From Trebouxia sp. TZW2008 (taxonomy: Eukaryota > Chlorophyta > Trebouxiophyceae > Trebouxiales > Trebouxiaceae), in assembly GCA_002118135.1 (NCBI GenBank), contig BDIU01000064.1, forward strand, positions 1-64,000: DNA of 64,000 nucleotides. Direction: 5' to 3'. Below the pieces are notes generated by a model. The model did not search any database and was not told where the DNA came from. It saw nothing but the letters and a program-made list of their open reading frames with translations. This document shows, piece after piece, positions 1 through 64,000 of this stretch. Each line of letters begins with the position of its first letter. Positions within the stretch are counted from its first letter, which is position 1. The position numbers and the translations under genes were made by a program.

Positions 1-316
1 TCAGTGAGAAAGCAAGTGGCCGCTTCGTCACTATACGTCAAACGAAATACGGACAAGCCCTCTGACTTGTCAGCCGGAGCTCCATCTGAACACATGTTCG
101 CGCGCGCAGTACGTCACCACAAACCAAGCACAGAATTGCTCGGTCTCGGAAGCGAAATTGAAAAACCTCCGATGACCTTTGACCTCTAGGAAACTTACTT
201 TGACCTCTACAGACCTCCAATCCAAAAGACAGCTCAGCCTGTCAGGGGGTCGTCTTCAAAATTGTCCTCCAAGCCGGAGTGCGCACCGCAATGAAGGGCT
301 TGCAAGCGACTTGACG
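1..316. other. Sequence upstream of the SET-domain gene
   Basis: No coding exon can be supported here. Two copies of TTTGACCTCTA lie near 177-210. This is the likely promoter and 5' leader of the gene that begins at 317, though an upstream exon outside the window cannot be excluded. Confidence 0.4.
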
Positions 317-3300
317 ATGATGCGGCACTGGCCTATCCTTCTGTTGTGCGCACATTGTCTACATGTTGCACTTGCACTTCCCGTCGAACCTTGTCCGGTC
401 GATGGACCCACTACCAAAGACTGCACAGGTGAAGAGCATGTTGCTTCACGCTTGTGCCCGCTCTGTGCGTTGGCGCACGATCAGCTCGGGCACATGTAGT
501 TGCCAGCGAGCAATTTTGACCTTTGTGGTGCTCCCTAAGGCCCTGCGACCTCGTGACGTTATGGCATGCCATCTGGCACGCAAACAATTAATGATTGCTT
601 TATGCGCAATCGCCTGAGATGCATGTGTCTCCACTGCTAACACAATCGCAGAAAATCGTGATGCTGCATGATGCTAGCAGACAACATTTGTAGACAGTCA
701 GCACTGCTAGTCTTGTGATGAGCATTTTGACATATGCATGATGAAGTCACAAACATAATTCTATGACTGTGCAGACAGTCGCATAGACAGCTTGCTAAGA
801 TGGTCCAAAACAAAGGGCATTCATGCACCCAATGTGCAAGCAGGGCAATCAAATGGCATGCGGGGTCTGATTGCAACCAAATCCATCAAGGAAAACGGCC
901 TTTTGTTGAGCATTCCCAGGAAAGCTGCCCTGATTGTTCATGATGGTGATCCCTCGCCCTTCCCACATCTTGTTGAAGAAGAGGAATGGGCTCAGCTACC
1001 CCAGTAAGGTCTGCATGCTTCCTGTTGTCAAGCGTCAGCCTGTGTTCCTCGTCATGTTTGTGTTAGTGACGTTGAGCGCAGCATGAACTCAGCCCTTCAT
1101 TCTTCTCCTGAGCACGGTAGCTTCACATGAGCCTCTAGCCTAGTCTGCAAATCTCAAGGATCAAACTGCTGCTGCAACCTTTGCCTTGCCAGCATGTGAG
1201 AATACATAGTGCCCCCTGATCCTTGAGTCTGGTACAGATGCGCAGTACTTGCAAGAGTGACGCTGATTTGCCACCAATTCACAAGCAAGTGTATACACCA
1301 AGCTGTCAGCTGCGGTATATGCATACTGCATGTCCCTGTCTCATGCCTGCCTGTTTGTGGCAACTATGTAGCAAAGTCACTGTCATGCAGGCTGCTGCAG
1401 ACAAACCTCCTCCTTTTGCAGCAGCAATGCATCAAGCATCACTGTTTTGCAGGCTGCTGCAAACAAACTTCCTCCTTTTGCAGCAGCAATGCATCAAGCA
1501 TCACTGTTTTGCAGGCTGCTGCAAACAAGCTTCCTCCTTTTGACGCAGCAATGCATCAAGCATCACTGTCATGCAGGCTGCTGCAGACAAACTACCTCCT
1601 GTTGTGGCATGCCAAGCGTGGCATAAATTCTCCATTCCATCCCTGGATCCAGTCTCTGCCAACATCTTATGACACTCTTGTGCACTGGACTTCATCCCAG
1701 CTAGATGAGCTGCAGTTGGGCATAACATCCACAGAGAAGCAATTCAGGACAGATGTGAGATTCTGATCGCTCATGTCTTCATCATTTTCTGCTTCTCTTT
1801 TCCTTCACCTACCAGCATGGCCTCAAGTATTTCCTAGTATGTTTATTCAAAGCAGTGGTGATATCAGGGCAATTTTGGGAGGCTCTCTAGCTGGTTTGTT
1901 GGGGTTCATTCACACAGCTATCATCAGCTTTGACAGGGCATAGCGTGTGCACTGCTGTGTCTCGCCTTCACCCATGCAGCCTTCATTGTGCTGAGCAACA
2001 TCTGCATCTAGCTGTCCTGCTTCCTACAAGCGGCTATCTTGTTGCCCCTTACGCACAAGCAATATACAGGGTGACAGCCACAGAGATGCAAGCATGGTTG
2101 GCGCTCCACACTATAGTACTGCATGTTTTCTTATGCCCTGCAGTGGCATGGATGATGTGCGATATCTTGCACCATGTTGTACAGGTTGAGAGCGCAGCAA
2201 GGGACTTGCCACAGCTGTATGCCCATTATCAGCAAACCGCCTTTTACAGGCAGCTGAACATCAGCCTTGAGGACCAGAATTGGGGTCTGGACTGCATCAA
2301 CAGTCGCTCTGTGTCTGCCCCGCAGCTCATTAGTAAGACCCGGTGTCTCACATCCTGCCAGCCTGTATTGTGACTGCTTTTTTGAGGGTGCAATGCATGT
2401 GCATGCCTGAGAGTCAAATACTGAGCAGCATAGCTGAAACGTGATGAGAAAAACAAAGTCAGTGCAACTGTGCAGAAGTTGCTGTGTGATATTCTGGCAA
2501 TCAAAACCGCTGTCTGAGCGATTGTGATTGTTTGCCTGTACCATCCCCCTGATGCAACAGAACACACCGTGTGGATCACACAGGCCATCTTTGGCCAGCC
2601 CCCTTTTGCTTCTTGATGCAGCTGTTGCTCAAGCAAGGCTCATGTTGATGGCATGCAGAATGGACACAGCCGCTGGTCACAGCTCTTCTTCTCATTGGCG
2701 GTGGTTGTGTATTTGCCTTCAGCCCATTGCGGAAGTCCCCCAACAGCAAGCCTATGTTGTGGCTTACTCTGTCAGCTGCGGTGTGTTGCCCTTGCATCTG
2801 CACTTGCCACTTAGTATGAGAAATTTGTTGAGCTTTTGATGATGTCCCATGCAAGACAAATCATTGACTGGAATGTTGTCAACCCCAAAGCTGCAAACAC
2901 AAAGTCGGTTCAGATAACCTTAGATGGAATCCTTTACTGGCGCTGCAGATTTTGCCAACTGGACAAGACACCTGACCATTTCTATAAACAACAAAGAGGT
3001 GGCTGCAAAACTTGTGTAGCTGAATGTGGCAGGCTATCCTTTTGACTTCTCACACAAATACATGCTGATATTTAGTAACTTTTGAATCCTCATCGTCAAA
3101 AAAAGATAATTGAATGTATCCGTCTTGATTTTTTTGAGTTTTGAGCAGACGATCAATGAATAAGCTATATACGTCTCCGGAACTATGAGCCATATAATTT
3201 TGCAAAACAGGATGACAAATCCATCCATCTCGTGAAAGCTCCTCAGCTTTTTGAGTCCGCAGTCGTGTTTTATGTTGATTGAACACTGGTTGTGCAGGCA

Positions 3301-6300
3301 AACACTGAAACAAAACTGCCGGGATGCTCTGAGCATTATACGGCATATCATGCTTTCTAGGCATGCAATGACTTTTGCCATATATCTTTAGCATTTGCGC
3401 TGGCTCACTGGCTCATGACAGTCTCATGCGTTCACAACTGATACCTATGTGATTGTGTGCATTGTTGTATTATTGTCATCAAAACTTTTGCTGTCGTTAT
3501 GGTCATCGTGTCATGATCATTGTGACAAGTATCAATGCTACTGCCATTGTCATTGTGACTGATGCAGACACTATCATTGCTGCAGGTGTTGACCCTAGGG
3601 CCGTGGGTATGGCAGTTTGCCCTGAATGGGGCTGCTCAGCCTGGAGGGCAGTCTGACACAGCCCTGCTGCCCCTCTTTGACTTGCTCAATCATGACAGCC
3701 GGCATGAGGTCAGCCAATGCTGCCTTGCACGACACCTGACACTGTATAGTATGGGCATTGGTCATTGAGGTCTTGCACCATGGTTGACATGCAGCAGGGG
3801 CGCTGGCACAGCAGGAGTCTGCTACCAGAGGACAATATGGCATTTCACTTGCTTACATCGCATGCTGGCAGCCAGCCTTGCTTTGACAAGGCCACTGGGC
3901 TGTCACTCATGACAAGCCCTGCAGCTCTGACTAAACAGCATGAGCATCGCCACATGACTGTCGCAATTTGGCCATCACAGCATGATCGCCAGAACCACCT
4001 GTGTGCTGTGCTTGTTGTCATGGTGCTCATCATCTTGTGCTGTTGGAGCTTCATCTCAAAGGTTTCCTTGATGTGGTATTGCCTGCGACATAGCACCAAC
4101 GCCAGGTTATGCACAGGTCGAGAATATCTTACAACATGAGGTCTGGTGTGGTCTGTAGCTGAAACTATATCTGTTGCATTTGAGCTGTGTGATTGCGAAG
4201 TGCTGACTGAGTGCTGTTGGGGCTGCAGGGAGCATGGCTGACATCCAGCTGGACAGGCAGCCACATTCACATCACTGCAGCAGCTCACGGCTTTGATGCT
4301 GGTCAGGAGGTACTGAACTTCTTCCTCATCTGTCTAGCCTTATTGTCAGTGCATCAGTCAGCTCATTGATAAACACTTGACAGTCTGATTGCCCCATAGC
4401 ATGGACACTGCCATTCAATTCATGTATTGACACGACACAAGCAAATTCACTTCACTGCAGCGGCACATGGCTTTGATGCTGGCCAGGATGTGACTGTATT
4501 TCTTTTATTTGTCTAGCCTTGTTGTTAGCCAAGCTCTTCTTGGCTGTTGCTAAGACTGTTGACTGTTACAGGACTGTCTGCATGTCATCACTCCAAAGAA
4601 CGCAGGAGTGAAACAAAGGTTTTGAGCCTCGGAGTATCCTCCGGTAAAAGATTTGGAGTAGTTTCCAGTTCGTCCATAAATTAATTATAGTCTATCTTCT
4701 GCCCCACGACAAAACACATGGATTAAGACTCCAACACTGCTCTTTAGCAGTCATCCTGGTTGATGGCACAAACAGCAAATTGTCAAGTCTCCTCAAAAAC
4801 CCATGGAGCAGGTCATTCTCTGAGGGGCAAGCGAATTTGCACTGCAATGTTTCTCAGTAGCTGTACAGCGTTGCACACTCTCACATGGGCAGCGTGTGAT
4901 TTCATGCAAGATGAGTTTGAACTCGGCTCATCTGTGCAGCTACTATTGCTGGGCTGACATGCCATCACAATGACTTTGGTTAATCGCTGCAGGCTCAAAT
5001 CAGCTATGGCAAGAAGACCAGCGAGACCTTCTTGCTGAACTACGGCTTTGTGGACACAAGCTATCAGTTTGATGCGTACAGCGCAGACCTGCTCGAGCAT
5101 GTTCAGCAGCGCTATGTCATTCCTTTGCAGCGAATATACACTCTACAGAGCAGCAGGAAGCTGTTCAGTGCTGTACAGTTGGTACGTTTGGTCGGCATCG
5201 CAGCATATGCTTATTGATAGTTCTGCTTGTACGTCTATGTCCATAAAGTGTCATTGTACAAGTGTTGACAGAAGCACATGCAGCAATGGCTTTTCTTCAT
5301 GTCATTGCACATATGCCTGCCTGTCCCCCTGTTGGTCTTTCTGTCTGCTTGCCTGTCTATCTGATGTCCAAATGCCTGTCTGTCCTAACGCCTGCCTGCC
5401 TGCCTTCATGTTTGTCTCTGCCTGCATGCCTGGCCCTTTTATGCTCATATATGAAGCTAGCTGTCTTGCTGTTCACGCCACCAGATGGATCATATTTGTG
5501 AAATCAGGCGTTGATAAAAGAGGTGCTGACAAGGATGTGTTGAGGGCACTGCACTGCCTGCTGGCGTCTGATTCACATCTGCAAGAACCTGGCTGTCTGC
5601 TATCTATCCGTTGCTGTTCCTGCTGTCAAATAAACCATTGCTGTGAAAAGAGATGTCGCTGAAGGCGCTGATCAAGACGTCTTGAGGGCTTTGCATTACC
5701 TGCTGGGATCTCAACAGGAATTACTAAGACTGTCTAAGTGCCTGCTGCCCTGCAGGCCTGTCTCATCTGTCTATCAGTTTGCCTATCTCTCCGTCTTGAA
5801 CACATGACCTCTTCCAATGCAGATGTCGCTGAAGAAAGGCGGTGCAGATGAGGACGTTTTAAGGACACTGCGGTACCTACTGGCATCAGAACAAGAACTG
5901 CAAGAGATAGAGGAGCAGGCACAAAGCCTTGGGCAATGGCTTTCAGACTTCATGGAGTACAGAAAGCGGCCTACAGCGTTGACACCCTTCCAATACAGAA
6001 GACTGTCTGATGCCACAGAGCAAGCAATTCATGAGGTGACTTGTTGCTGCTTCACCACAAAGTAATGTTTGATGTAACAGCAAGCGATCCATGAGACAAG
6101 TCAGCGCAGCCTATACCCCAAGCAATGTTGTACTTGGCATGATACACTATGTTGAAGGGCAAGCGCAGCAGCCTTCACGAAACAAGGCAAGGTACACATG
6201 CACAGCATAGTTGTGCATATTATGCAGCGGACACGCAATACACATAAGCTGGGATTAGACAGCCTGCATGACATGCTACTGTTCTGAGTGCCCATGCCAA

Positions 6301-8678: not shown

Positions 8679-11600
8679 ATGCCGGCCAGCCATGACATCA
8701 CGCACGTCTGCCACACGTCCCTTTATTCCACACATGTGTATACAGGCACTGCGTGCAACCACGCTGGTTGTTATACCCCCAGATCAGCGTGCGCTGGTTC
8801 AATAAGCAAATCTCATGTCAAGCCTCGCGCTGCGTCTTCCCCTGTGCATCGCCAAACTCCCCTCAACTCTTTCTCAGCAGTCAAAAGTCACAGGCACGGC
8901 ATCAGCCAAGCCAGCAGGTGTAGGCTGTGTTCAATGAGGTGTCTTGCAGCACAGCAGAGCACAGAAAAGCAGCACTCTTCAGCAGTCTCACCAGATGTTG
9001 GCAAAGGAAAGAAGCTGCTGATCATTGGAGGAACAGGCAGAGTTGGGTCATCAACGGCAGCATCCCTTCGAGAGACTCACCCAAACCTAGAAATCATACT
9101 TGGCAGTCAAAGTAGGGAAAAGTTCGATGCAGCCATTGAGCACAGACCGTCTCTGAAAGGCTTGCAATACAAGAGGGTCAACAGGGATGACCTGCAATCA
9201 CTGCTGTCAGCGCTTGAGGACTGCGACATGGTTCTTCATACTGCTGGCCCCTTTCAAAGGAAGAAAGACTGCCTTGTGTTGGAAGCAGCCATCCAAGCCA
9301 AGAAGCCATATATAGGCAAGCAACCTTGCATGCACTGAACATGATTTGCATGCGTCATATCCTGGCGAGCTTGCTTTCTCAAGCAAACATGTCACACACG
9401 TCATGACACAAGCAGGTGCATGCCCTGCTGTCCACTGAAACAAGCGCACAAAAGACGTATTTGCATCTGTGCTGCATCACAGCACTGAACCACTGTGTCC
9501 AACATTGTGAGATTGGCGTCAACTGACATTGTTGTGGTTTTTTAAACATTGTTGCAATGTGCATTGTTAAGAACGATGTGTTAGCCTGCCCTTTTCTTTG
9601 CGCAGATATGTTTGATGACAATGACTACGCTGCCAAAGCTAAAACGGACTACCATGAAAAGGCTCGAGCGGCAGATCTATGAAGTAGGACTGACTCCCTT
9701 TCCCTCTGCAGATGTGTGTGATGACAATGACTACGCTGCCAAAGCCAAAGCAGACTACCATGAAAAGGCTCAAGCAGCCGGTGTGCCTGCCATCACATCA
9801 GGCGGGATCTACCCTGGTGTCAGCAACGTCATGGCAGCGCATATGGTCTCCACAGCCAGAAGGGAGTATGACAAAGATGGCAAGTTTGTGGGAAAGGATG
9901 GGGAAGACAAGAGTAATGCTGTGGAACCCAAGAAGCTGCAGTACTTCTACTACACAGCAGGCACAGGTATGCAACATGTCCTGCTTGAACTACTGATCAG
10001 TGCTACAATTGTTTTGACTGTCTGTTATTGACCCACTGTACACTTGAACTGAATCTCAGTCTGTCACCTGTTGGATGCACCAGCCTACCAACCCATTGCT
10101 GTGTTGCCACAATGTCAGCAAGTATGCAGAAGGTGGATGGCACGTCGCCATGAAGACAATTTGCTTGCTAGTTGGCATGCCATTGCCACTTGCTGATTGC
10201 AACAATGCAAGAGGCAAAGCCCATGAGACAACTGCTCTGCTGTCACACCATGTGACTTGCATGCTAAGCACTGTGAGTATGCAGGTGGTGTTTGGCCTAC
10301 TACCATGAAAATCGGCTACTTGCTAGCCGGCACACCAATCATTGCGTGTGCTGATGGCACACAGCTCAAGGCAGGATTATCAGCCAATCGCTTTATTGCT
10401 CTATGACTTCTCGTAGGGTACAATTTAAGGTGTCAGGGGCCGCAACCAAAGCAGTGATCTGCATACAGGTGGTGTTGGGCCCACAATCATGGAGACAAGC
10501 TACTTGCTAGCCGGCACGCCAGTCATTGCCTATGCTGATGGCAAGCAGATAGAGGCCAAGCCCATCAGCCAGCCAATCACTGTGGACTTTGGCAAGGGCT
10601 TGGGCCGCAAAACAACATGGCTTTACAACCTGCCAGAAGTGGAATCAGCCTTCAAGTATATGAAGGTGCCCAATGTCAGTGCCCGCTTCGGCACAGACCC
10701 TGGTGAGTTGCCATTACATCCTGCCACATCACAGTGTTCTTACATCACTGTCTTCTCACATAACGTTGTACTTGGCTGACAACAGGCATCTGCAGTGTCA
10801 ACTGTGCTTGTGGGTTGGTTTCAAGTACATGAAGGTGCCCAATGTCGGCGCCCAATTTGGCACAGACCCTGATGAGTGTCCGTCTCTGCAAGACCATATA
10901 GCCATGTCACATAAGAAAGGGGATGCATTTGAAGCCTTTGCTGTTGATACTGTTGAGTCCTCTGCTGCAGCATCATGCAGTCATGTCGTGCAAGCAAAGA
11001 GACAAAGGAAAGGTCGAGCTATTGGGCATCTTGCAGGGATCCTGCATACCAGCAGCCCGTCTCGATGCTGTGCCATCATTGAACGCAATGCAATGCACTG
11101 CAGTGCAGCCCTGTGGGATCTGTTGTGTTCCTGGTGACCTGAACTACGGATGCTATGTTATAGGTTGTCAAACTTGTGGACTGTCAAATGTTGCTGCGTC
11201 TATCTCATGCAGTTTTGCACATCAATATCACTGTGTGGTACCATATGCTCTGATGCTTGCTGCAGCATTTTGGAACTGGGCAATGGTGGCCACCGCTCGC
11301 TTCCTGCCTGTCAAGATTATCACAGACAGAGACAAGATCCGCAAGTTTGCTAAAGCCACCAGCCCAGTCATCCGCTTTGTGGACCCTCTCATTGGGGAAA
11401 AGGTCATGTGTGCTGCAATTAGACTGTGGTGTCAGCAATGTCAACTCAGTATTGTAATGCTTGTGTTCCTGACAAGCTGTGCTACTTGATGCTATTGTGC
11501 TTACTTTCTGCGACTTTGGTTTGAAGTCAGCATAGCGGTTGTGTCTTTGATACTAAAGCTGCTGATTACGTATAGGGTGTTGCCCGAATTAGCACCTGAT

Positions 11601-12657
11601 TTGGGACCACTGACATCTGCTGATGTGTGAACTTGCAACTGCCTCATGCATTCAATGAAAGATGAACAGCAGTTGGTGGCTCTGCATGATGTTGTGACTG
11701 TGCCAGCATGACATTATGTCAGAGCTGCGTTCGCATTGTATTTCTGTGATGGCACTACCAGCAGCTGCTCATGTAGCTTTCACTGAGTTTTGCCAGAGTC
11801 AGCTGCTGCTGCTGAATTGAATGCAGTTGTCACGAGCTGGCTCAAAGTCTTGGAGAGAACCAAAACATGTGCAAGTCTACATGAACAGGTGGTGCATGCA
11901 CATACATGTTGTGACTGGCTACCCTGTGCAGGTTGGCATGAGGGTGGACTTGGAGCTCGCAGATGGTTCGAAAGCATGTGGCGTCTTCATTCACAAGAAG
12001 CTGTCTGACAGTGCAGGGTAAGTGTCTGAGGTTTTCTTTGGTGTTTTCTAGCAACATGCATTGGCACCTATGTGGGCTTTGGTCATCTGCCTTGTGTATG
12101 CAATTTTGCCACTGCAGAGGACCCCCTGAAACTGCTAACAGTAACATTGGCTTGGCTAATGCATGGGACACTTGCCTTGGTTGAACCTGTGCCCGTAAGC
12201 CCCTGATCATCGCTCATTGCAGATGCTGTCCTGCTTGTGATAGACAGAAGATGACATGTTGAGCAACCTATGCGGGCATTGCATAGCTCCATTTGTGCTT
12301 GCAAGCCCTTGCATTCATTGCTGCTGGAGATAAGAATGTGACGAGCTGAGCAACCTGTGCAAGCATTGCATAGCTGCATTTGTACCCATGAGACCTTGCT
12401 TTCATTGCTGCTTGAGACAAGCAGAAGGTGACAAGTTGAACGATCTTTGCAGGCATTGCATAGCTGCATTTGTGGACACGATGCTACAAGGAGGGACCAA
12501 GCCAGGAGTTTGGTTTCCTGAGGAACCTGGAGCAGTAAATGATCGAATGAGGCTATTAGAGCAATCCGCACAGGGCTGCATCAGGTTTGAGCTAAATCAG
12601 CCGCCATGGAAGATTGAGTCAGATGCTAAGCAGATGGGCATGGGTTTTTATTGGTGA
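8679..12657 (+). CDS. Plastid saccharopine-dehydrogenase-like oxidoreductase (At1g50450-like), six exons
   Basis: An NAD(P)-binding protein of the saccharopine-dehydrogenase-like family; the reaction of the plant chloroplast relatives is not established. The first ~100 residues are rich in Ser, Arg, Ala and His and resemble a plastid transit peptide. The Rossmann motif IIGGTGRVGSSTAASL follows, then VLHTAGPF, ITSGGIYPGVSNVMAAHMV, DFGKGLGRKTTWLYNLPEVE, FWNWAMVATARFLP, MRVDLELADG and PGVWFPEE, in the order known for this family. Exons 8679-9315, 9712-9966, 10469-10702, 11266-11402, 11932-12017 and 12453-12657 join in phase to 517 residues. The first intron appears to start with GC (9316). Four exon edges have decayed tandem copies in adjoining introns. 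TGTAA lies near 12872, about 215 bp after the stop. Confidence 0.92.
9606..9776 (+). repeat. Duplicated 5' end of exon 2 of the saccharopine-dehydrogenase-like gene
   Basis: A copy at about 9600-9685 (acceptor GCGCAG, then DMFDDNDYAAKAKTDYHEK) precedes the real exon at 9712 (DVCDDNDYAAKAKADYHEK). The upstream copy keeps acceptor and phase but reaches a stop after 24 codons, with no donor before it. Confidence 0.85.
10278..10570 (+). repeat. Duplicated 5' end of exon 3 of the saccharopine-dehydrogenase-like gene
   Basis: The copy at about 10278-10395 (acceptor TATGCAG, GGVWPTTMKIGYLLAGTP) precedes the real exon at 10469 (GGVGPTIMETSYLLAGTP). The copy stays open for about 40 codons and then stops. 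Confidence 0.85.
10645..10880 (+). repeat. Duplicated 3' end of exon 3 of the saccharopine-dehydrogenase-like gene
   Basis: The real exon end (FKYMKVPNVSARFGTDP, donor GTGAGT at 10703) is repeated downstream at about 10818-10880 (FKYMKVPNVGAQFGTDP). There the donor has become ATGAGT. The decayed copy is downstream, unlike the two acceptor-side cases in this gene. Confidence 0.85.
12225..12480 (+). repeat. Three copies of the 5' end of the last exon of the saccharopine-dehydrogenase-like gene
   Basis: Units of about 95 bp at about 12228, 12325 and 12420 share GAGCAACCT(A/G)TGC..GCATTGCATAGCTxCATTTGT. The last unit is the real exon start (12453, HCIAAFVDTM). The first two have lost the canonical TTTGCAG acceptor. 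Confidence 0.8.
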
Positions 12658-18563: not shown

Positions 18564-21500
18564 ATGACAGCAAGCGGCGCTGACAAGCATGGCGGATCGC
18601 ACAGTCACACGGGACTGGCAAGGCTCAACTCGGTGTCCAAGGTGGTCACCCTTGACTTGACGAGTCGTGCGTTTTGACGGAGACGGGTTTTGACACAATT
18701 TTGGCTCGCGCAGGCCCGTAAGCCGTACACCATCACAAAGCAGCGGGAACGCTGGACAGACAGTGAGCACGACTTGTTTTTGGAGGCTCTGAAGATGTAT
18801 GGTCGCGCATGGAAGAGCATCCAAGGTGCGTCATCTGGCCGCTACGCAGCCCAGCGTCTTCGTGTTGATCGGCTATCGAATCGATCCATCCTTGAAATCG
18901 GCTTCATGATTGCAGAGCACATAGGCACCAAGACCACGGTGCAAATTCGCAGCCACGCACAAAAATTCTTTTCTAAGCTGGACAAGCAAAACACTACAAA
19001 AGGGGCAGGTGAGCTGCGGACCCTTTGTCATTGTACTCATCTTGACAGGCTGCCTTTTCAACACTACAGCTAAACGGTTGCTGCATTGCACAGCTGACCT
19101 CTGCATTGGGCAGCCCCAAATGCTGCAATTGCAGTGAGCTCGATCTATATGTATTTGCATACATCAAGCTCGTTGACAGCAGATGCAGTGTCTCTTGCAG
19201 CAAGCCATTCAACGCTGACTATCACATAGCAGTACCAAAAGTAGCAAGCTCATTGACAGCACATGCAGTGTCTCTTGCAGCGAGCTACTTGACGCTGACC
19301 GCCGACGCATTACCAAAAGTCACTGATTAGCTACTTGTTCACTGCAGAGGAGATGGACATTGTACCAGACAGACACAGGTCCAAAGCCAAGCATGGGTCA
19401 CTGGTGCAGCCTCTCGCACGAAATGTCTTGAACATGCCATTGACATCGTCAGCAGCTAATCAGGTTGCAGTGGCCAAGCAGCAGCAGACAGCTGCTGATG
19501 TGGCAGCTGCAGCAGGCGCTGTGGCAGCTGCTGCTGCCTTGCAAGTCATTCATGCAGCTGGGGAGCAAGTGCAGGCCCAGCTTCAGGTATTCGTCAAATT
19601 TTGTGCATCAGTAGTCGCGTGTTTGCATGCTGCTAGGGCATGACCTAGAACAATGAGTGCTGACGGTCATTGCCTTTTGTATTTATACCGCGTAGCCAAC
19701 TCTTCTCAGACACAAGATGGCAGCTGCGGTTTCACATGAAAGCCATTGGCTTGATGTTGCCCCTCTGTATTGCTGTCGAGCATGTGTTCTTGAAGCTGAT
19801 GCAGTATGTACCATCTGTTCAGTATGTAAGGTGACACAGCAATAATTGTCAATAATGCCAATGAGACCTAAAGTTCATGCTCGTGAACATGTAAAGGGTT
19901 GATGCCACAAAGATATGCTCATTGCCACAGCTGCAGTGTCTTTGTGATACAACACAATCCGCATGTGACATGGCAGCCACGTGATGCAGGAGACCCCCCC
20001 ACAGGGCTTCCCTTTCTTTGGCATGACCCCAACAGCGCTCTCCAGCTTGAGTCATGCAGAGCTGCAGAGCCTTAGTAAGGCTGGAAGCTGCTCAAGCGCC
20101 ATCCCCAACAGTCTATTGCAGTCAGCACAGCTGTCTGTGACTAAGTCCACAGGCCTCCAGCTTGCTGCTCCAGGGTCTGTCAACCCTGTCGTAGACCCTA
20201 CGGTCCCACGCTTGCCATCTATGGGTGGTGCAACCATTGCTCAGGTGTGTGACAAGTTTAGTCAGTAGGCCTGATAGCTGTTCATGTGTTGCGCAGCATG
20301 ATGAATTCAGATTACTTGATGCACTGCTGCTGTCTCTATGCATTTGTCCTCCAGTCACTGCCCAGCTTTTAATTTTGCTGCTGATGTGGTTTGCTACAAA
20401 TGTGTTGCTGTCACTGTGCCTTTCTTCATGTGATGCATGTCATGATCACAACCGATTGCGTAACGTGCTGCTGCTGCGGTTTTTTGAATGCAAGTCGACT
20501 CAAGCTTTGCAATTGCTAGTTCTTTGCTTGTAGGGCTGTGCCTGCTCCTTGCTAGACAATTGAAGCCTTCAGTAATATTCCATGGTGACACGAGCTGCGC
20601 AATGGCAAGAAATACAACATGCATGCTGCAGTCATGTTACAGACCCTACACTGGGAAGTGACATACGAAACTGCAAGAACCACAGCATGCCTGATGCAAT
20701 GAATTCAGATATGGCACAGTTGAAAGTGACACATGCAGGTTCAGCAACTTGCACACAGGGCTTGACAACGCCGTACAGGTCCAGCATTGCAGCAATGCAC
20801 CGCTGAGTGGCTCGATCTTGCTGCAGGCTCACGGCTCAGGCGACAAGCTGAGCACAGTCTCAGGCGTGCTGCCCACCTTGGCTGTGGCCACAGCTGCGGC
20901 AGACAAGGTGGCTGCCCAGCAGAAACAAAATGGCCTACACAGCAGCACTGGCCGTGCCTTGAAGCACATCGGCAGCGGCAAAGGCAGCAATGAGCTTGAC
21001 ACAGTCGTCAACAGGGTGTTGTCTGCAATCCACAAGGATCAAACCACAGACTCAGCTGATGCCAAGAGCAACTCTGGCCAGACCACCACTCACTCAGGCA
21101 CTGAAGGGGGCGTCACTGCTTCAGCAGGGGGTGGGGGAGGGGGGAGCCTCTCGGGGGGCAGCGCAGATGCGCACTCCAACCAGGCACAGTCTGTTGACTG
21201 CACTGCCAACGACAGCAGCAACGCCTACTGCAACACTCAAACAGGGCGTGGCAACCAGTCCATGGGAGACTGCCAGACTGGTGAAGCGCCAGCTGTTGTT
21301 CCTGGTAGCGCTGAGGTGTATCTGCAGCAGTCTCACCATGGTATGTGCTTCTGCTGTGGTCTCCTGCATGGTTGCTACCAGACTTGGCCAGTACAACCAT
21401 CAATGCTGTAGGTGGCTGTAACTGCATGCACGATGCAGAGCAGCTGTACGTCTCTGCAGAAGTGTCAATATGGTATGTGTTATTGTTGTAGTCCATTGCA

Positions 21501-24212: not shown

Positions 24213-25037
24213 TCTTCACATATTTTTCACATGACTTCCACATAACTGTGATGTTCTGGCCGAGCCAACGGCCATCTTGCTTCTTGGGCTTTATACTTGG
24301 CTTGCACCACCCAGTCAGTCTAACGCTACAGGGGCCACTCCACACAATTGCAATTTATTGGCCTCCAAGAATGAGCGCAAAGACAAGTCTATGACAGTTG
24401 GTGGTGTTGTTGCCAGACTTTATGTATTTAGTGGCAGCTCAAGCTCCAACCCATCATCTGCAAGAGTTTGGTCGCACTGTGAACACCTCTGCAGCCAAGC
24501 TCTTGACAGCTCAAAGTCTGACAGGACAGAATTCGCAGGCAGGCCACAACAGGACAGTCTGACAGCGTTGTATGGCACAACAAGTCGGTGACATCTCCTA
24601 TGACTCAACAGGACATTAGCATGTCGTGCAAAGCATGCACCTCGGTGATGGGCAAATGTGCTCTGACAGCACAGTCTGACAGCGTTGTATAGCTGAACAA
24701 GCTGGTGACATCTCCTATGCCTAAACCGCATGTCAGCATGTTGTGCAAAGCATGCATCCAGATTGGTGGGCAAATGCGCTCATGGGTGCGTGTCGTAGGG
24801 TAATTTCTGAGGGTATCTGGCGTGAATAGAATGAGGGCTGAAGATCACAAGAAAACTCTTAGGAACATGATGCTTTTTGATAGTTCACAAAAGTTGCAGG
24901 TGTGGTTCTCAGGCTTCCAATGTGTTGTCCACAGAACCTACAGACTTTGATACAGTCTGCCCTGTTGCTGCTCTTATCTGATGCTTTTGCTGAGTCATCT
25001 CTTTTCAACTCACTCTGGGATCGTGTCTTTTCCTTAG
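24213..25037. other. Intergenic region downstream of the CCA1-like gene
   Basis: Contains the 3' end of the CCA1-like transcript and a 125-bp tandem repeat (24545-24790). A possible upstream exon of the following gene lies near 24832-24900 (MRAEDHKKTLRNMMLFDSSQ, then a CAG/GT donor), but it cannot be joined with confidence. Confidence 0.35.
24545..24790. repeat. 125-bp tandem direct repeat, about two copies
   Basis: ACAGTCTGACAGCGTTGTAT begins units near 24551 and 24671. Each unit continues through GGTGACATCTCCTATG, CAGCATGT.GTGCAAAGCATGCA and GGGCAAATG. Copies differ at scattered bases. Confidence 0.85.
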
Positions 25038-25362: not shown

Positions 25363-25479
25363 AGGGTGGTGCTTGCATGAACTGGTTGCTTACAGTAAAA
25401 TTACTCTGTCTAAGTACTGTACTGCGCTTCTGATGCATCAGATCTGCTCACTGTTCTGCCACACAGCAAGATGTAGTCC

Positions 25480-48100: not shown

Positions 48101-51100
48101 TTCCGCAAAAAGAAGGACCAAAAGGTATGCAATGGCAGAATTTGTGCATCAACTGCTGTTGCGACTGCACATCCCAGGTTGAAACTTGGTCTTGTCACAG
48201 CAATTGATAAGGCTTTGCGGCCTAGTGGATCCTGCTGGCGTCATGCTGCATCATGAGTAATGTGCTGCAAGCACATCCTGCGCGTAAGTCTCATTGACAC
48301 CTTTGTTCCTGACCCTTTCACATCAAGCAGGTGCATGCAATGCATCTGTTCTGGACAATTTCATCTCTCAAGGGCAAACAGCTGCACGCAATCAATAATC
48401 TCTGAGTCACTCTGTCTACCAATGGTGAGCAGCTCTGTGCAATGCACAAGGCTGGGATGTTGCTTTGTATCAAGGGCATTCTGTCAATGCAGCTGAGCAC
48501 AGAGGAAGTGAGGAAGATGGAGGAGGAGGAGGCATGGGAGTCCACTGATCATGTGCCCATCATTGATGAGGATATCACAGAGGCATGCTTCTTCTTCTGA
48601 CATATCTGCACCGCTTTTACTACAAAGCACTGTGCTTGCAACATTTATGCAATCACACCTGTGCAAATCACAGGCTTAAGTGCTTACAGAAATGTATGTC
48701 TGTATGCTTGATGGCATCTATAGTTCAGCATTGCAGCAGTGCCTTGAGGACTGCCTTGTTACTACACACACATATATCGTATATACACGTATCACAGTAT
48801 GTTCTGACCATGCCATCCTTTGGAATGCAACTTGATGATGAGGCCAGCTGTAGCGCTTTTCACATTTCTTTCATCAGCAGTATGACACGACGCAGCACTG
48901 CTGCTATCTGCTCCCTGTTGCAGCGTCGAGTGTGGTGTCAACCACAAACTCTGACACACTGCTGTGCAACAAGCGGGGACATTACTAGCCATCCCAGGGC
49001 CCATTCAGCAGCATTACAACATCCTGCCAAAAAGGCAGCATTGGCGCACATAGTCAAGACGCTACACACACTGTAGTTCACCAGTTGTGACATTTTGATA
49101 TTCAACAGGTGAGGCCAGCACCAGCGGTTCCAGAGCCCATTCAGCAGCAAAACACTGCCCTGCAACACTGCTGCTACCTGTCAGCTGATTGCCAGTGCTA
49201 GTGCACATTCTGACGCCTCGGTGTGCAACAGGTGAGCCCAGCACCAGCGCTTCCAGAGCCCATCCAGCAGCAGTATGATACTCTGCAGCACTGTTGCTAC
49301 CTGCCAAGGAGGGCACATCTCAGCAGCAAGCCTGATTAGCCTGTGCAGGCCCTGGCGTCCACTAGATTGGTAGACTTGCAGGATGTTTTGGTCTGCCAAT
49401 GTTGACTTGTGTGCGTGCAACAGGTGAGGCCAGCACCAGCACTTCCAGAGCCCATCCAGCAGCAGTATGACACCCTGCAGCACTGCTGCTACCTGCTAAG
49501 GAGGGCCCACCTGAGTGGCAAGCCAGATGAGCCTGTGCAGGCCCTGGCGTCCACTAAATTGGTAGACTTGCAGGATGTTTTGGTGTGCTGATGTTGACTT
49601 GACTGCGTGCAACAGGTGAGGCCAACACCAGCGCTTCCAGAGCCCATCCAGCAGCAGTATGACACCCTACAGCACTGCTGCTATCTGCTGCGGAGGGCCC
49701 ACCTGAGCGGCAAGCCAGATGAGCCTGTGAAAGCTTTGGCGTCCGCTGGATTGGTGGACATGAAGAAAGTGCAGTTTGACGACCCCATGATTTGCTCCAT
49801 AGGCATTCAACCCTGGCTGAAGTACATGGAGGTACAATCTCCCGCCCCCCTGTTGTCATGTCTTGTGGTGACTGATTGAAACAGGACTCGTTGCGCTGAC
49901 TTTGGCTGTCAATCAGTCAGCATTGAGTTCCATTGTGAGCGTTTAGCACATGCTGCGATGAGCTCTCTTTCCCCTCCTTTCCTTTCGGCGCTGCCGTTCT
50001 AACAATCGTCTCCAAAGGGCTGTGACTTCTGTGGCAAGCGACTGCCACTGTGCTTGCTGTATAGCCTTTGTTGAATATCTCTGCACCCGCCCTCTTTTAT
50101 ACAGGGCACAATCGCCAATGCAACCCGATCCAGCGCTGTGACTGCAAGGCTGTCAATGCTGCAGGCTTTGAAGGTGGCTGGTGCTTGGACTCAGGCAGAG
50201 CATGTCTGGGCAGAGGTCTCTGACGACAGGTCAGTCAACAGTCTGACAGCTGGCTGCATGCATGCTCTGTTTGCGGCTGAAGTGTCTGACAGCTGACTGC
50301 ATGCATGCCCTTTTGGGCAGCTGAAGCGTCTGACAGATGGCTGCATGTCTGCACTGTTTGGTGCCTGGATTGTCCGGCAATTTGCTGCATGCATGCACTT
50401 GTTGGCGGCTGAAGTCTGACAGCTGACTGCATGCACGCCCTTTTGGGCAGCTGAAGCGTCTGACAGATGGCTGCATGCATGCACTTTTTGAGTGCCCGAT
50501 TGTCTGGCAATTGGCTGCATGCACGCACTTGTTTGCGGCTGAAGTGTCTGGCAATTGGCTGCATGCATGCACTGTTTGGTGCCTGGATTGTCTGGCAATT
50601 GGCTGCATGCATGCACTTGTTGGCGGCTGAAGTGTCTGACAGCTGAATGCGTGCATGCACTGTTTGGTGCCTGGTTTACTCCACAGCTTGCTGCGAGCAG
50701 GCAATGTTTGGCATCTTGAAAGTGCCTCCGGAACATCGTGGACCATTGTTGCCGACATTAGTCTGGTAGGCATCAAACAGGCGCTGCATGCATGCGGCTA
50801 TACAGTGAATGCAGGGTCAACACCACAGTATTTGCTCACATATTACTGTTTCACTATCATTGATGTTGCTCATTGCACTTGGTTCAGACAGCTGTTTCAA
50901 CTGCAAGACCCCCTCATGCCAAGACGTGAGTTTTGGAGTGTTTCCATGTAATCACTTCACAGAGTAAAGGGGGCTATATTTCAACACTATGCAAGCCTCG
51001 TTGCCTACATGGTTTGCTGCATGAGTCATGACCCAATCTTTTTGACAAAGCTTTAATGTCTAGTCAAGTGCTTGCAGCTGCTGTCATTTGCTGGGTTTAT

Positions 51101-55244: not shown

Positions 55245-58200
55245 CTATTGATTTCGTTTCAAACCCCGTGCCTGAGCGCGCAGCTGAAGATCATGTTTGT
55301 AGCTGGCTTGCGATTGCGCAAACTGCTCTATACAGTCCTTGACGAAGTGACCTATGAACAGTAGCATTATGAATCCCCAAAGGCTGGGGACTTGTGATTG
55401 CAGCCACAATTTTGCTGCGCCCCAGCTCGTGAAGCTGTCTAGCATCTTCTGAAAGAACCACCTGCAGCAATCATACGAATCTGAACAAGAAAAGTTATAT
55501 GGCAAATATGACAATGCACAGTGCAATGAGACTTATGTTGTTTTGCATGGAAGCAGTTCAATGGCTTCCATCATGTCCTGTCAGAGTCTGAAAGGATCAA
55601 CTGCAGCATGTGTCAAGCCATGTCAAGCAAGAAGTGATGCACTTGCCATGCAACACACATTTTTGCGCATTGGGAGCAATCAAGTGGGTGTTGAACGCTT
55701 TCGGTTTACAAACAACGTGTCTCATACTGACTCCTACAGGACATCTTTTTGACATCGTGCTTACTTGTGCATGCCCTGTAGGGACAGCACGGAGCAACGA
55801 GCTGTGCAAGCATGATTGTCAAACTGCAGCTTGTCTAGAAAGACAAGAAAACAAAAGCGTGACGCCAACAAGGGGCATTCAGTGATGCACCAGGCTTCCA
55901 GACACATCTAAAAGGCTTTTGAGGGGGAGGGGAGAGGGGTAATCAATACAGCTTATGTACCTGGGGTCGGTACCCCGCGCTGCAGCCCTGCTGTCGACGC
56001 CATCTTTGAAGGTGTCAATCCTGTAAGTGATGAAGGAGTGCAGGATAGCGGCTGGCGTTTGCTGAAGATGAAGACCAGGTATGCTTCGAGGCAATACCCA
56101 CTCCACCCATTGCATGATGGCAGCTCTGGTCTCTCTTCTGAACAGCGCAAGAAAGAAGGCAGCCTGTGCATTTGCCTGCAGGACACACAACATGCTCTTA
56201 GATCATGCAAGCTGTTTCAATGGTGAACGTGTGACATGGTCAATGTGAATTGTATTGATGGTTCCTTGACAAATTCAGCACAAACAGTGTTGTCACGTCT
56301 GCAAGACTCACCCCCATGCAGGGCTGCACATGTGTGTAAGGAGCAGCTACTGGTTGTGTACGGCACAGCTCTTCCTGTTTGTTTGAGGCATAGCTGTTGC
56401 TATAGAAAGGATGTCTCTGCAAAGTCGACATTTTCATTCAGTCAGGATGATGCACCAACGTGCAGTGATGATGCGCGTATGTGCGACCTCACCTTGATAA
56501 GTGCTTTGCCAATGAGAGTGGCTGCGTAGACATCCCAGAAGGATCAGGAAGTGCCTTATCTGCAACAGCAAGGTGCTCCATGTGCCAAACTCACCTTGAT
56601 AAGTGCTTTGCCAATGAAAGTGGCTCCAAAGAAGTCCCAGAAGGGCATCAAGAAGTGGCCGCAGCAGATGCCGCACAGGTCAAAGGCAGCATTGGGCCAG
56701 GCTGCCAACAGCAGGATGCCCACAAAGCCATGCCTGCACCATGCAAGCTGAAATCGCAACCATTTCAATGCTGTTCCTACAACCTGCATTTGCAGCTTGC
56801 AGTCCAATGCTGTTGCAACCAAGCTGCTATCTTGCATGAATGCACTTATGTCAGCAACTCGTCTCTGCTGTATATGTGCGCCATTCTGAATTGCGCTCAG
56901 CACCTTAAGTTTGAGCTGAAATATGCTGCTGGTCAGTGGGTCAATCAGTCAATATTCAACAGATAGCAGGTAGCAAAGGATGCCATTAAATCTGGCCAAA
57001 CTCATTGGACAGGACCCCACCTCTTGATGAAGTCAAGCATCCAGTTCTTCATGCGCAGAACAATGTGCCCAATGAAGCCATTTTCAGCGCTTGTGGACTG
57101 CATGCCAAACATCTTTTCCAGCTCCTCGTTTTGCTTGCCAGCTTTTGCAGCATGGTAGCTGAAAGCATAGGGCGGCACCTCTCCTAAGGCAGTGCCAGCA
57201 CCCCAAAGCATGGCAGATGATGATACCTGCAGATTCATTGTGTTTACAGTCACTTGAGGCAGAGACTGTTTGTGCACAGTCGTGGTACAGTTGATAGAAA
57301 CAGCAGAAGCAACAAGGTTCAGTGTCCCACAGCATGGCAAATGATGACACCTGCAAAATAAGTATCAAACTGACAATACATGTTAAACGTGCCACCACCA
57401 GGGCTTGGTGTGTGTGACCCAAGTGTTTTCAAGCCATGCCTGCTTGCTTTGGCTGCCACAAGGACGTGTGATGTTCAGTCACTGTATATTGCAGCACTGT
57501 TAGACAGAATCATTGCATACAGAGCTGTTACATAGCACAACCAGCGGTATGTCATCAAAGTCACGCAAGAAGCAGCCCTGCATATGACGTCCAGGGGCAG
57601 AATCCACATCTGACACCGTGAATGAGGTGCAGAACAGAGCCCAGTCCAAAATGTGCTGCATAGGGTCCTACAGATGTTGGACATGCTACGTGCAACAAAA
57701 TCAATGCATGTGAAGCACACATACCTTTCTCAGTATATCCCAGAACGCAATGGAGCGCTGCGCACTGGAGTTGCAGTATAGGCCCTCAGAGCTGTTCCAC
57801 ATGTCATTGCGCACATCAAAATTAAGGTTGCCACATTTCTCAGCAGCCAAGCACACCTGTATGCCATTGCATTGCTCAGGTGTGTGCCTTGCACCTATGC
57901 TTTTGCTTTCAACGTAAAGCCAATGCCTGCAAGTAACCGCATTAACCTCAAAGCTCTACAGATCACAGCACATCCTCAACGACACAAACTTAACCAGCTT
58001 GCTTTCAAGCACCTTTTGGGTATTGCAGTGAATTGCAGTTGCATTTTCATGCAATGCCATGCATTGGTGGCATAGCACATACTGGCAAATGTGAGAGTGA
58101 AGCAGCATTCCAGCACAATCTGGAGGGGGCAGAATTTGGACACAATGATGGCTGTTTGATGAAATGATGACCTTGAGCATGTGGGGAAACAGGAAAAGGA

Positions 58201-59824: not shown

Positions 59825-61253
59825 ATGCCAGATCAGATCTTGTATTCGGTGGTCGCCAGACAGACCGTGGTTTTAGCTGAGTTCAGGTAATTCAGATTTA
59901 CAGCGAAATGCGATTTCATGTAGATTTTTCTTGCATTACCGGCTATGTTGTCCTGTTGGGCACTGATCACGCTTATGCCTCTGTATCGTAGCACTGTAAC
60001 CGGCAACGCCAATCTTGTCGCTCACCGCATTTTGGAGAAGCTCCCTGCCGAAGACAGGTTTGTGGATTCAGTTGCTGCACTTGCCACCCGGTTGATCTGC
60101 TTTGACTTGCCAGGGAACTGCGCAAAATCACTAAATAGTCTGTGTGTGCATGCAGCCGAGTGTCATACACACAAGAGCGCCATGTCTTCCATGTCCTTGT
60201 CACTCATGGACTTGCATTTGTATGCATGGCAGAAGAGGTACGCCCAGACATGTATGCAATGTGCTGCCTATATACATGCAATGTGCTGCCTATCCATACT
60301 TGTAATGCGCTGCCTCTACATACATGCAATGTGCTGCCTATACATGCATGCATCTTGTTGCCCAATCCTGCGCTGCAAATGGTTCGCTGCTATCCCAGGC
60401 AGGTTGGTACAAGCACAACTGCCACATATATAGCGCAGACAATATACATGTCTGTACTGCAGGCACTGGGGCGCAGAATACCATTTGCCTTTCTGGATGA
60501 CATCAAAGAAAAGTTTCTGGGCGCGTATGGCCCAGAAGCAGCCCAATATGCCGTCGCATACGAGTTCAACACAGAATTCAGCGGTGTGTTGCAGCAGCGC
60601 ATGCGATACTTTGCAAATGACCCAAATGCAGATACCATCAGCAGAGTGCGTGGTGGGGTTGCTGAGGTCAAGAACATCATGGTAGAAAACATTGAAAAGG
60701 TACAAGCACAACACATACATGCATCTTTTCACAGGCAAGTTTTGGGTTTGGCAAAGTGCCAGCACACGTATCATCACAAATTGCTTCGTCATGTCACAAC
60801 CGCCTGCTGACAAGGTCAACACATACAGTTCACAATGAAAACAGATGGCTGGTGTCGTTGTGTGTTTTGTGATTTCTGCCATATAAAGGAAACAGTTCAA
60901 AACCCAGACATTGTCTGCAGGTCTTGGGGCGAGGAGAAAGGATTGAAATGCTTATCCTTATCGACAAAACAGATCACCTGCCTAGTTTTGTCCTAGAATT
61001 TTGCCATGCAAACAAGCAGCCTGAAGTTTGACATTATCTGCAGGTCTTGGAGCGAGGAGAAAGGATTGAGCTACTTGTTGACAAAACAGATCACTTGCAA
61101 AGCCAGTCCTTTGCCTTCAAGCGAGATGCCCGGCAGCTGAAACAGAAAATGTGGTGGTCCAAAATACGCTGGTGGGCTGCTCTTGCAGCTGTAGTTCTCG
61201 TCATCATCTACATTGTACTTGCAATCTTCTGCGGCCCCAAAATGCACTGCTGA
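59825..61253 (+). CDS. VAMP7-like: R-SNARE of the VAMP7 (longin) family, five exons
   Basis: A membrane-fusion protein of late endosome, vacuole or plasma-membrane traffic. The longin domain reads MPDQILYSVVARQTVVLAEF, then ANLVAHRILEKLP, RHVFHVLVTHGLAFVCMAEE and IPFAFLDDIKEKFLGAYG. The SNARE coiled coil is VRGGVAEVKNIMVENIEKVL, with the central-layer Arg in ERGERIELLVDKTD, then LQSQSFAFKRDARQLKQKMW. A C-terminal anchor WWAALAAVVLVIIYIVLAIF ends the protein. Exons 59825-59886, 59992-60057, 60156-60237, 60463-60699 and 61044-61253 join in phase to 218 residues, the usual size. The start of exon 5 has a decayed copy in the last intron. It is divergent from the VMP1-like gene. Confidence 0.95.
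60905..61100 (+). repeat. Two copies of the last VAMP7 exon start
   Basis: The copy at about 60915-60990 (CTGCAGGTCTTGGGGCGAGGAGAAAGGATTGA) precedes the real exon at 61044 (CTGCAGGTCTTGGAGCGAGGAGAAAGGATTGA). The upstream copy has an insertion after that (ATGCTTATCCTTATCG versus CTACTTGTTG) and later a stop. Both have acceptors; the spacer AACCCAGACATT/TTTGACATT before them is also similar. Confidence 0.92.
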
Positions 61254-62084: not shown

Positions 62085-64000
62085 ATGGCAAGCTTCGTCG
62101 GTCTGGTTGCGGTTTTGATCCTTGGCAGCGTCTATTCGGAACCGGCACTGGCTATCGTCATTCCAAACCCCGCACCTGCCGCAACAGCCTCTCCTGCTGT
62201 AACCATGCTGGCTGGAACACTCGCAGACGGTATGACGGCTTCGAACGCGACATTGGTCGCGTCCCTTGTGCGTGGATCAATAGCCAAAGGTACTGTGCAA
62301 GCCGCGCACACCGCATGTTGTCAATGCGTGCCCTTGTGTATGTTGTGAGATCCTTATGCGCAACTTGTAGGCAACGCTTCCGCGCTGGCACAGACAATCA
62401 TCTCCAGTGTCGAGCAAGCAGACTCAGCATATGCTCAAAGTCACTCATCAGGACCGGGCCCGGACCTTGTGGTTCGCGGCGCGCCGTACAGGCCATACAA
62501 TCACGCAGCAGCAGCAGCTCGGGCTGTTGCGCTCGGGCAAGGTATATTAGAAGCCGGAGTTTCGCGTAGTGATCAGGCTGCTGCGTATGCTGAAGCCTTC
62601 ACCCAATCCTTCTTGCAGCAGACATCACCTTTTCAAGGGTTGTATGGTGGTTTTACCATTGCAACACAGGCCTTGCTGGCTGCTCAAGCTGGAAATCAGA
62701 CTGCAGCCTACAGTCAAATCTTCACACAGGCATGCCCGCTGGCCAAGCATATACTGCCTGTAACGTGTCACTGATCCTGCTCTGTGTTTGAATGCCACAA
62801 ATGGTCTGGACTAGCCTTGCTAGGCAAAAAAGCACACATGGGATATTGCCTTCCAATTGCACTGCTCCTGTGACAGCTGTCTGTGCTCATGCTAAACTGT
62901 TGGCATGGTGCTGGAACCTGGTCTATCCATTCATTCTGCTCTCCTGTCACAGCTCTCAGTGCTCACGCTAGAGTGCTGACATGGTGCCTGCAAATTGTGT
63001 TTAGCACTGCATGTTTGATATTTATCAGTCTCTTCAGGCCTTTCCGGCAACAGCTAGTAAATGCACGTACTCTATGTGACAAGATTGATACCTGCATCAT
63101 GTCAGATTCCTGCCATGAAGTATGCAATACTCCTGAATATACAATGCCACATTGTTGGCGATGCATGAGTACTGCATGAACATTGAGCTTTGCAATGGTG
63201 CAATTTGGTCGTTTACCTGCTGGCCCCAATGACCACAAACTGAACATTTGAATGAATGCACTGCAGGCCAGGGCTGCCAATGTCACTGTCCAGAATGTGG
63301 CGTCAGTCCTAGTGACTCAGGGCATAGATATCCCAGTGGGTGGACCAGCTGCACTGGAGGCAGCCAACACAGTTTATGGAGCCACAGCAACCTCCCTGGC
63401 TGCAGTGTCAGGTGAGAGACAACGTAGATGAACAGCAGTATCCAGTGTTGCAGTAACCGGTGAGAAGTGGTGTCATACACAGAAAGGCTTGAACAGATAT
63501 CTTTTGCTCATTTTCATAGCAACTGTTGCACTTGAGGCGGCCAACAGTGTGTATGGAGCGTCAGCAACCTCCCTGGCTGCAAGAACAGGTGAGGGCTGAC
63601 AGGCAGACAGAAAGTTCAGGTTGACAGGGGCTGTTGCCTGCATGATTACCAGATGAGACACAGTTTAGGTGAACCGAAACGCTGTGCCAGACATCTTTGC
63701 TCAGTCTTGAACTTGCTGTTGCACTTGTGGCAGCCACTAGTGTGTATGGAGCCACAGCAACCTCCCTGGCTGCAGTATCAGGTGAGGAGTGATGTAGAAA
63801 AGGCCCGTTTAGACCCCTTTTGTGGCTCACAGGGGTTCATGCAACAACTGTTGTGTTGGGAAGAAGAAAGAAGCCGGCATCATGGTTGTCTCTGCTGTGC
63901 TTTGCTGCCTCTGGGTGACTTGTGTCAAGAGCAAAACACATGTTCAACACACTATTTCTGTCTGACGTACCCAGCTGTAAAGATGTAAGCCTGCAAGCCT
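62085..64000 (+). CDS. Secreted Ala-rich repetitive protein, incomplete at the window end
   Basis: Exon 1 (62085-62289) begins MASFVGLVAVLILGSVYSEP, a clear signal peptide, followed by Pro/Ala-rich sequence and MLAGTLADGMTASNATLVAS. It joins in phase to exon 2 (62371 to about 62729): ALAQTIISSVEQADSAYAQS, then AAAAARAVALGQGILEAG and AAAYAEAFTQSFLQQ. The donor may be GC (GCATGC) or a little later. A third exon near 63269 reads NVTVQNVASVLVTQGIDIPV and VYGATATSLAAVS. Two further related exons follow at about 63522-63590 and 63715-63781, and the array may run past the window. Ala, Ser, Gln, Thr and Val dominate. Such composition suggests an extracellular matrix or cell-wall structural protein. 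No domain recognised. Confidence 0.7.
63320..63795 (+). repeat. Tandem exon array in the Ala-rich gene (three copies in the window)
   Basis: GCAGCCAACACAGTTTATGG, then GCCACAGCAACCTCCCTGGC, recurs near 63357, 63538 and 63733, each ending in a CAG/GTGAG donor. Frames are ALEAANTVYGATATSLAAVS, ALEAANSVYGASATSLAART and ALVAATSVYGATATSLAAVS. All three stay open and keep donors, unlike the decayed copies elsewhere. Confidence 0.9.

Follow-up and report, generated by a model that had tools for sequence, protein, structure and literature searches.

Exon edges and their decaying local copies in the nuclear genome of a Trebouxia-like alga

Direct repeats at exon edges

The DNA analysed here (the window) is the first 64 kb of contig BDIU01000064.1 of Trebouxia sp. 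TZW2008, from an assembly of 68.5 Mb in 527 contigs (sequencing technology unknown). It contains an O-GlcNAc transferase gene (OGT), a saccharopine-dehydrogenase-like (SDH-like) gene, a SET gene, and CCA1-like, NEK-like kinase, VMP1-like and VAMP7 genes, in several of which segments spanning the edge of an exon recur in the adjoining intron. Its protein matches assign the window to the nuclear DNA of a Trebouxia-like lichen alga, since the OGT product shares 94% identity with a Trebouxia sp. C0009 protein and the best match of the SDH-like and SET products among named organisms is likewise Trebouxia. A preliminary description of the window had read these copies as a genome-scale habit of exon edges, present in nearly every gene and able to supply decoy or alternative exons. 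A second, independent sample of the same genome, positions 200001-400000 of contig C273 (200 kb), brings the DNA considered to 264 kb.

When the window is compared with itself, 70 forward and 4 inverted pairs are obtained, 69 of the forward ones no more than 2 kb apart; the C273 sample has 120 forward pairs, of which 107 lie within 1 kb, and 19 inverted ones. In a local repeat scan with a cut-off of at least 36 bits, forward pairs number 234 (83 in the window, 151 in C273) and inverted pairs 12 (5 and 7), and one dinucleotide shuffle per sequence yields no forward pairs from either and 0 and 5 inverted pairs, respectively. At lags of no more than 1200 bp there are 3452 exact 12-mer matches, compared with 84 in an order-3 Markov sequence. 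The copies in this genome are local, direct and non-random. They are also, as the preliminary description held, not one gene's history, for the pattern extends beyond the window to the C273 sample and to a set of eight other loci (28 kb), which have 12 forward and no inverted pairs in 6 clusters at three of the eight. Grouping of forward pairs up to 1.5 kb apart resolves the two samples into 84 clusters (27 in the window, 57 in C273), i.e. one per 3.1 kb, of which 37 are contiguous (at most 10 bp between copies) and 47 gapped.

Placing these clusters relative to exons requires care, as the gene map comes from an ab initio hidden Markov model gene finder that merges or misplaces exons at copies. 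It gives a splice-spanning call for just two of the seven SDH-like and OGT clusters, all of which homology puts at an exon edge, and labels four of the ten clusters in the OGT, SDH-like and SET genes intron or intergenic. Because homology contradicts its calls at the copies, enrichment measured on the gene-finder map is not relied on alone. Exons were also aligned to homologues, with Trebouxia proteins as queries for these three window genes, which had been chosen in the preliminary description, and PDB chains for eight genes of the C273 sample, SMC2-like (including the hinge), UV-endonuclease-like, ORC1-like (including AAA), TTLL-, Sec61-, PRPS- and NNRE-like models among them. This set comprises 12 stretches, 11 genes, 41.6 kb, 65 introns, 130 splice sites and 20 clusters. 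The choice of genes was not blind, the SMC2-like and UV-endonuclease-like genes having been picked up by their visibly doubled predicted proteins, and three exon ends were placed by us (the end of the ORC1 exon at about 49050, the acceptor at about 174480 in the UV-endonuclease gene, with weak PDB support, and the Sec61 exon from 99700). Clusters 52928, 54840 and 77077 of the C273 sample, whose exons are unaligned, were omitted, as was every cluster outside the 12 stretches.

In the OGT, SDH-like and SET genes all ten clusters lie at an exon edge, with one to four extra copies each, and the original introns account for the canonical proteins. Copies of an acceptor are found upstream of the real edge and copies of a donor downstream of it, the arrangement first described; when gene-finder sites from the full sample are used, the copied site is on the intron side in 35 of 52 cases and on the other side in 17. 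Ten further clusters occur in the eight C273 genes, where at least 10 bp of exon is included in eight, 7 bp in one (TTLL-like) and none in one. Over all 11 genes, therefore, 18 of 20 clusters hold at least 10 bp of exon adjoining a splice site, with a spare copy in the adjoining intron, and at a threshold of 7 bp 19 qualify. The splice site itself falls 5 bp or more within an aligned copy in 16 of the 20 (15 if only the best pair is taken); in two SDH-like cases the aligned copy begins just 3-4 bp before the acceptor. The 18 clusters are set against 130 splice sites in the aligned gene models. Copying of exon edges into the adjoining intron is thus borne out, and 'nearly every gene' proves too strong: an exon-edge cluster is present in 7 of the 11 genes, or 8 counting the TTLL-like case. 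The Sec61-like and PRPS-like genes show no cluster in their aligned models, each of which is without a short piece, so that one exon is missed there. In the SMC2-like, UV-endonuclease-like and ORC1-like genes the PDB alignments reveal spare copies merged into the gene-finder models; for SMC2 the alignment runs from GLEVKV directly to GFGDVWKQ, skipping the copy between.

The exon-edge duplications of the window are listed below. The NEK-like, VMP1-like and VAMP7 cases, which had already been noticed, were located by self-comparison, and their exons are without homologue alignment.

1377..1604, plus strand: SET gene acceptor array, 62-bp unit in about 4 copies, the last with the real exon start (near 1577); exon from homologues P0241 and P0242
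4262..4528, plus strand: SET gene donor-edge duplication, real exon end 4262-4309 plus intron, copy 4442-4528; tblastn also finds the copy, at 4454-4498
5516..5905, plus strand: SET gene acceptor-edge copies, spares 5516-5586 and 5651-5720 upstream, real exon from 5823; homologue alignment
9602..9778, plus strand: SDH-like acceptor-edge duplication, spare 9602-9672, real exon from 9712; homologue alignment
10149..10571, plus strand: SDH-like acceptor-edge copies, spares 10149-10230 and 10279-10386 upstream, real exon from about 10466; homologue alignment
10651..10877, plus strand: SDH-like donor-edge duplication, real exon end 10651-10702, spare 10820-10877 downstream; homologue alignment
12231..12474, plus strand: SDH-like last-exon acceptor array, 87-90-bp tandem unit; repeat scan and homologue alignment
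31806..32119, minus strand: NEK-like kinase donor-edge copies, real exon end 32044-32119, spares 31924-31995 and 31806-31856; Pfam kinase match ends at 32052
40183..40609, plus strand: OGT donor-edge array, 168-bp unit in three copies, real exon end 40183-40272, spares 40351-40441 and 40523-40609; homologue alignment
42027..42667, plus strand: OGT acceptor-edge copies, spares 42028-42085, 42151-42223, 42281-42358 and 42446-42487 upstream, real exon from 42622; homologue alignment
43233..43666, plus strand: OGT donor-edge duplication, real exon end 43233-43282, spares 43364-43415 and 43597-43666; homologue alignment
56479..56657, minus strand: VMP1-like donor-edge duplication, 56479-56553 a copy of 56580-56657; gene-finder exon only
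60907..61098, plus strand: VAMP7 acceptor-edge duplication, spare 60907-60981, exon from 61044; gene-finder exon only

Fate and length of the copies

Comparison of 28 pairs of real edge and spare copy gives differences at 70 of 557 first, 56 of 556 second and 121 of 556 third codon positions (12.6, 10.1 and 21.8%), and frameshifting gaps in 9 pairs. The codon-position ratio of 1.9 is close to our expectation of 1.7-2 for a free spare copy set against a real exon that changes mainly at silent sites, and the spare copies therefore look like neutral debris with near-neutral divergence. In OGT the amino-acid changes relative to an outgroup fall in the spare copies, except for one common to exon and copies. 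The spare reading at 42314-42361 has a stop, and the donors of the 40183..40609 array run from GTAATT in the first copy through GTTATC in the second to GCGAGC in the third. Pairs of at least 85% identity cover 5.0% of exon interior and 4.6% of exon edge, against 1.6% of intron interior and 1.2% of intergenic DNA; constraint on one copy predicts this richness in exons.

These results bear directly on the proposed role of the copies as decoy or alternative exons, which they do not favour. Duplications that create alternative or mutually exclusive exons are recognised by an open frame and coding constraint, and here there are frameshifting gaps, the OGT stop and a near-neutral codon pattern. In favour of selection, AG is retained in 28 of the 31 decoy-acceptor rows, compared with 70% for ordinary dinucleotides (P 0.010), but copied donors keep GT in just 12 of 23 (P 0.11 against control; Fisher P 0.004 for acceptors against donors), and all these rows take their sites from the gene finder, which may favour AG-bearing copies, with some rows sharing a site. 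We regard the asymmetry, as if decoy donors were more harmful than decoy acceptors, as a lead only, and consider it very unlikely that the copies are kept under selection as alternative exons or regulatory decoys.

The SET-like protein P0243, annotated in Trebouxia sp. C0010, contains HSRSVEIPKPF and, 46 residues on, HIRFVETPHPF, and a duplicated donor edge seems to have been annotated as coding in this sister species. The exon of the window that corresponds to the doubled segment has no local repeat cluster. Gene finders evidently go wrong in such genomes, as the errors of our own hidden Markov model at copies warn, and P0243 seemingly carries a copy.

The length of the duplicated unit appears to be limited. 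Exact 12-mer lags average 12-14 independent clusters per 12-bp bin between 12 and 200 bp and about 5 between 200 and 400 bp. The smallest strong period of a cluster falls at 155-204 bp in 23 cases and at 205-254 bp in 2, and the period of the best pair drops over the same interval from 25 to 4. Tandem Repeats Finder, a second method applied to the same DNA, returns 10 rows between 160 and 199 bp but not one between 200 and 259 bp, and at the eight extra loci the best-pair period is below 200 bp in five of six clusters and 230 bp in one. This limit near 200 bp resembles the size of an Okazaki fragment or of a nucleosome repeat, and would connect a pattern of genome evolution with lagging-strand or nucleosome biology.

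General duplication or targeting of splice sites

The account that we consider somewhat probable is that general local duplication, purifying selection and decay together make exon edges look targeted. Short direct duplications of about 15-200 bp would accrue locally and largely irrespective of genes. One spanning an acceptor or donor would be harmless, and so retained, provided the intron-side copy is spliced out; one lying wholly inside an exon would usually be purged by selection. The real exon edge would then stay constant as its spare drifts, keeping the pair recognisable longer, and a pair within an intron would be lost from view sooner, both of its members drifting. Exon edges would look like the target because exon/spare pairs outlast intron/intron pairs. 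At the level of DNA, the duplications may arise by staggered-nick fill-in and joining, or from mis-joined lagging-strand pieces, either of which would fit a limit near 200 bp. Matches to the Ku, XPG_I and DNA_pol_A families were found in the genome by profile searches, so that no repair defect is suggested; their presence does not discriminate between mechanisms.

Counting splice-site overlaps against a control, as the preliminary description had proposed, gives an ambiguous answer. By gene-finder sites, 33 of the 84 clusters span a splice site compared with 27.1 +/- 4.1 in 1000 rotated placements, which is not significant, and 22 are intergenic compared with 30.0; the comparison loses force because it is at the copies themselves that the gene finder errs. 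Per base, on the same map over the 264 kb, repeats cover 12.6% of exon interior, 11.8% of exon edge, 10.7% of intron edge, 13.4% of intron interior and 7.7% of intergenic DNA, with overlapping intervals and no peak at exon edges. The aligned genes were compared with a simulation in which random tandem duplications fall in the same genes, wholly exonic events are removed, the real exon is constrained and the detectable pairs are counted; unit lengths are assumed uniform between 30 and 200 bp, and the substitution and indel rates were chosen by us. The observed median aligned lengths, 51 bp on the exon side and 20 bp on the intron side, are approached by one setting, with indels (58 and 22 bp), the other two giving 61 and 60 bp and 56 and 37 bp.

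Several results weigh against general duplication as the whole account. The simulation predicts that 54-65% of clusters touch an exon by at least 10 bp, where 18 of 20 do (P 0.0006-0.012), and that in 43-49% the splice site lies 5 bp or more within a copy, where it does in 15-16 of 20 (P 0.001-0.017). Without the ORC1 cluster, whose exon end we placed, 17 of 19 still touch an exon (P 0.001-0.016). Old pairs, below 75% identity, should by this account lean towards introns, and the bias is weak: coverage is 9.3% in intron interior against 5.7% in exons, with overlapping intervals, and intron 30-100 bp from a splice site (4.4%) and intergenic DNA (4.2%) do not exceed the exon value. Exon-involving pairs show no clear excess of gaps over neutral ones, 28 of 41 being gapped compared with 17 of 37 (P 0.066). 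Among the gapped pairs of the clusters, 41 were tested for residual similarity of the spacer to the flanks, 6 more being too long for the test, and only 9 show it; some may be spaced insertions or the result of later deletions. The drop near 200 bp departs from an exponential distribution (scan-corrected P 0.012), and recent copies are too few for microhomology at breakpoints to be read, Tandem Repeats Finder giving just four near-perfect two-copy arrays, which reach 2, 2, 0 and -1 bp past one unit.

The excess over simulation is the best argument that duplications are truly targeted to exon edges, for example by breaks or nicks tied to transcription, R-loops or the exon-intron junction. It is not simply due to the genes chosen in the preliminary description, because the group of genes that carries it switches with the criterion: those three genes give 10 of 10 clusters and the other eight 8 of 10 for exon contact, and 7 of 10 and 9 of 10 (P 0.003-0.009), respectively, for an included splice site, with 5 of 6 in the latter group when the SMC2-like and UV-endonuclease-like genes are removed. 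Against targeting stand the repeats found within introns and outside called genes, the flat base coverage, the NNRE-like gene, whose exons can be aligned with PDB 2dg2 throughout and whose sole cluster lies wholly within an intron, and the assumed rates, authors' exon ends and unblinded gene choice on which the excess depends. We hold targeting to be somewhat unlikely; for the claimed habit of exon edges the excess itself speaks in favour, and the intronic and intergenic clusters and the absence of a coverage peak speak against. Constraint and decay account for much of the exon-edge dominance; there is an excess that the simple model fails to cover, and exon edges may be truly preferred.

A more prosaic view, which we think unlikely, is that these are ordinary minisatellite-like tandem repeats, no denser than is usual in intron-rich genomes, which caught attention because exons are easily read. 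Indeed, tandem duplications are given as the commonest small insertions in the human genome (PMC5730883), and published repeat content in Trebouxia is about 9-16% (PMC11523091, PMC12712428), but one cluster per 3.1 kb, with 18 at 130 splice sites, seems high. The 527 contigs and unknown technology of the assembly could suggest an artefact, an explanation to which we attach almost no probability, as most copies share 65-92% identity and have changed independently, unlike misassembled duplicates, and in OGT and the SDH-like gene the canonical exon is intact beside them.

Pressed further than general duplication and decay, the data would describe an unusually active process that duplicates pieces up to about one Okazaki fragment or nucleosome repeat long and leaves a decaying exon-edge copy at roughly one in seven splice sites, perhaps with a true preference for edges, such that introns grow partly from neighbouring exons and many splice sites compete with their own duplicate. 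We offer this fuller picture with considerable doubt. Were the pattern general, it would provide a DNA-level source of intron growth, and hundreds of dated natural tests of how duplicated acceptors and donors are tolerated or silenced.

Related systems and further observations

Short tandem duplications reportedly arise from the repair of staggered nicks or of breaks with protruding ends (Vaughn and Bennetzen in 2014, Schiml in 2016). The Trebouxia copies are similarly direct, adjacent, tens to hundreds of bp long and independent of sequence family, and their local pairs are forward in 234 cases and inverted in 12; they differ in being read here as old, decayed copies, in their apparently high density and in the fall-off in length near 200 bp. 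Break repair in Arabidopsis and human cells is described as commonly yielding small tandem duplications (PMC5730883). Introns are also accepted to arise when exonic segments are duplicated in tandem (PMC3443670), from which our case differs in that the spare copy appears simply to lengthen an existing intron. One duplication in a potato RdRp gene, across the 3' end of an intron and the start of the next exon (PMC4974935), has the same anatomy as the Trebouxia acceptor-edge clusters.

In FEN1/RAD27-deficient yeast, insertions between direct repeats are linked to the processing of Okazaki fragments, whose size of about 200 nt is the point of likeness (PMC5677150). Palindromes are enlarged there too, whereas inverted pairs are rare in Trebouxia, and the matches to Ku and to XPG_I, the family that includes FEN1, give no sign of a deficiency. 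Introner elements (PMC9860276) likewise place repeats inside the introns of many genes, but they form dispersed families and the Trebouxia copies are, as the self-comparisons of the two samples indicate, almost all local. Unclassified repeats and long interspersed nuclear elements are prominent in the accounts of Trebouxia repeats (PMC11523091, PMC12712428), and the word 'tandem' does not occur in the main text of these two genome papers. A literature search at the level of listings found no report of genome-wide exon-edge duplication in Trebouxia or of a size limit near 200 bp. The Trebouxia duplications are of a known kind and lie densely, and their length is limited near 200 bp.

On another contig of the same genome (G000 C57:178778-179254) a profile search places three neighbouring hits on almost the same part of XPG_I, spaced by 155 and 172 bp and with stop codons in two of the three; this looks like the same pattern.

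Local repeats of the window away from exon edges are the following.

19165..19320, plus strand: direct tandem pair, 80 bp, in a CCA1-like intron; no called splice site reached, on the gene-finder map only
24549..24781, no strand assigned: direct tandem pair, 116 bp, outside called genes, where the gene finder may have missed a gene
50241..50677, no strand assigned: 44-bp unit in about 10 copies with a 130-bp higher order, outside called genes

In a long intron of the CCA1-like gene, positions 21318-22792 hold a complex set of local repeats, whose lags reach 1.3 kb, and an imperfect 280-bp palindrome (21888-22166). At 47494-47531 an 8-bp repeat, TACCCCTA, is present in 4.8 copies within a gene-finder exon.

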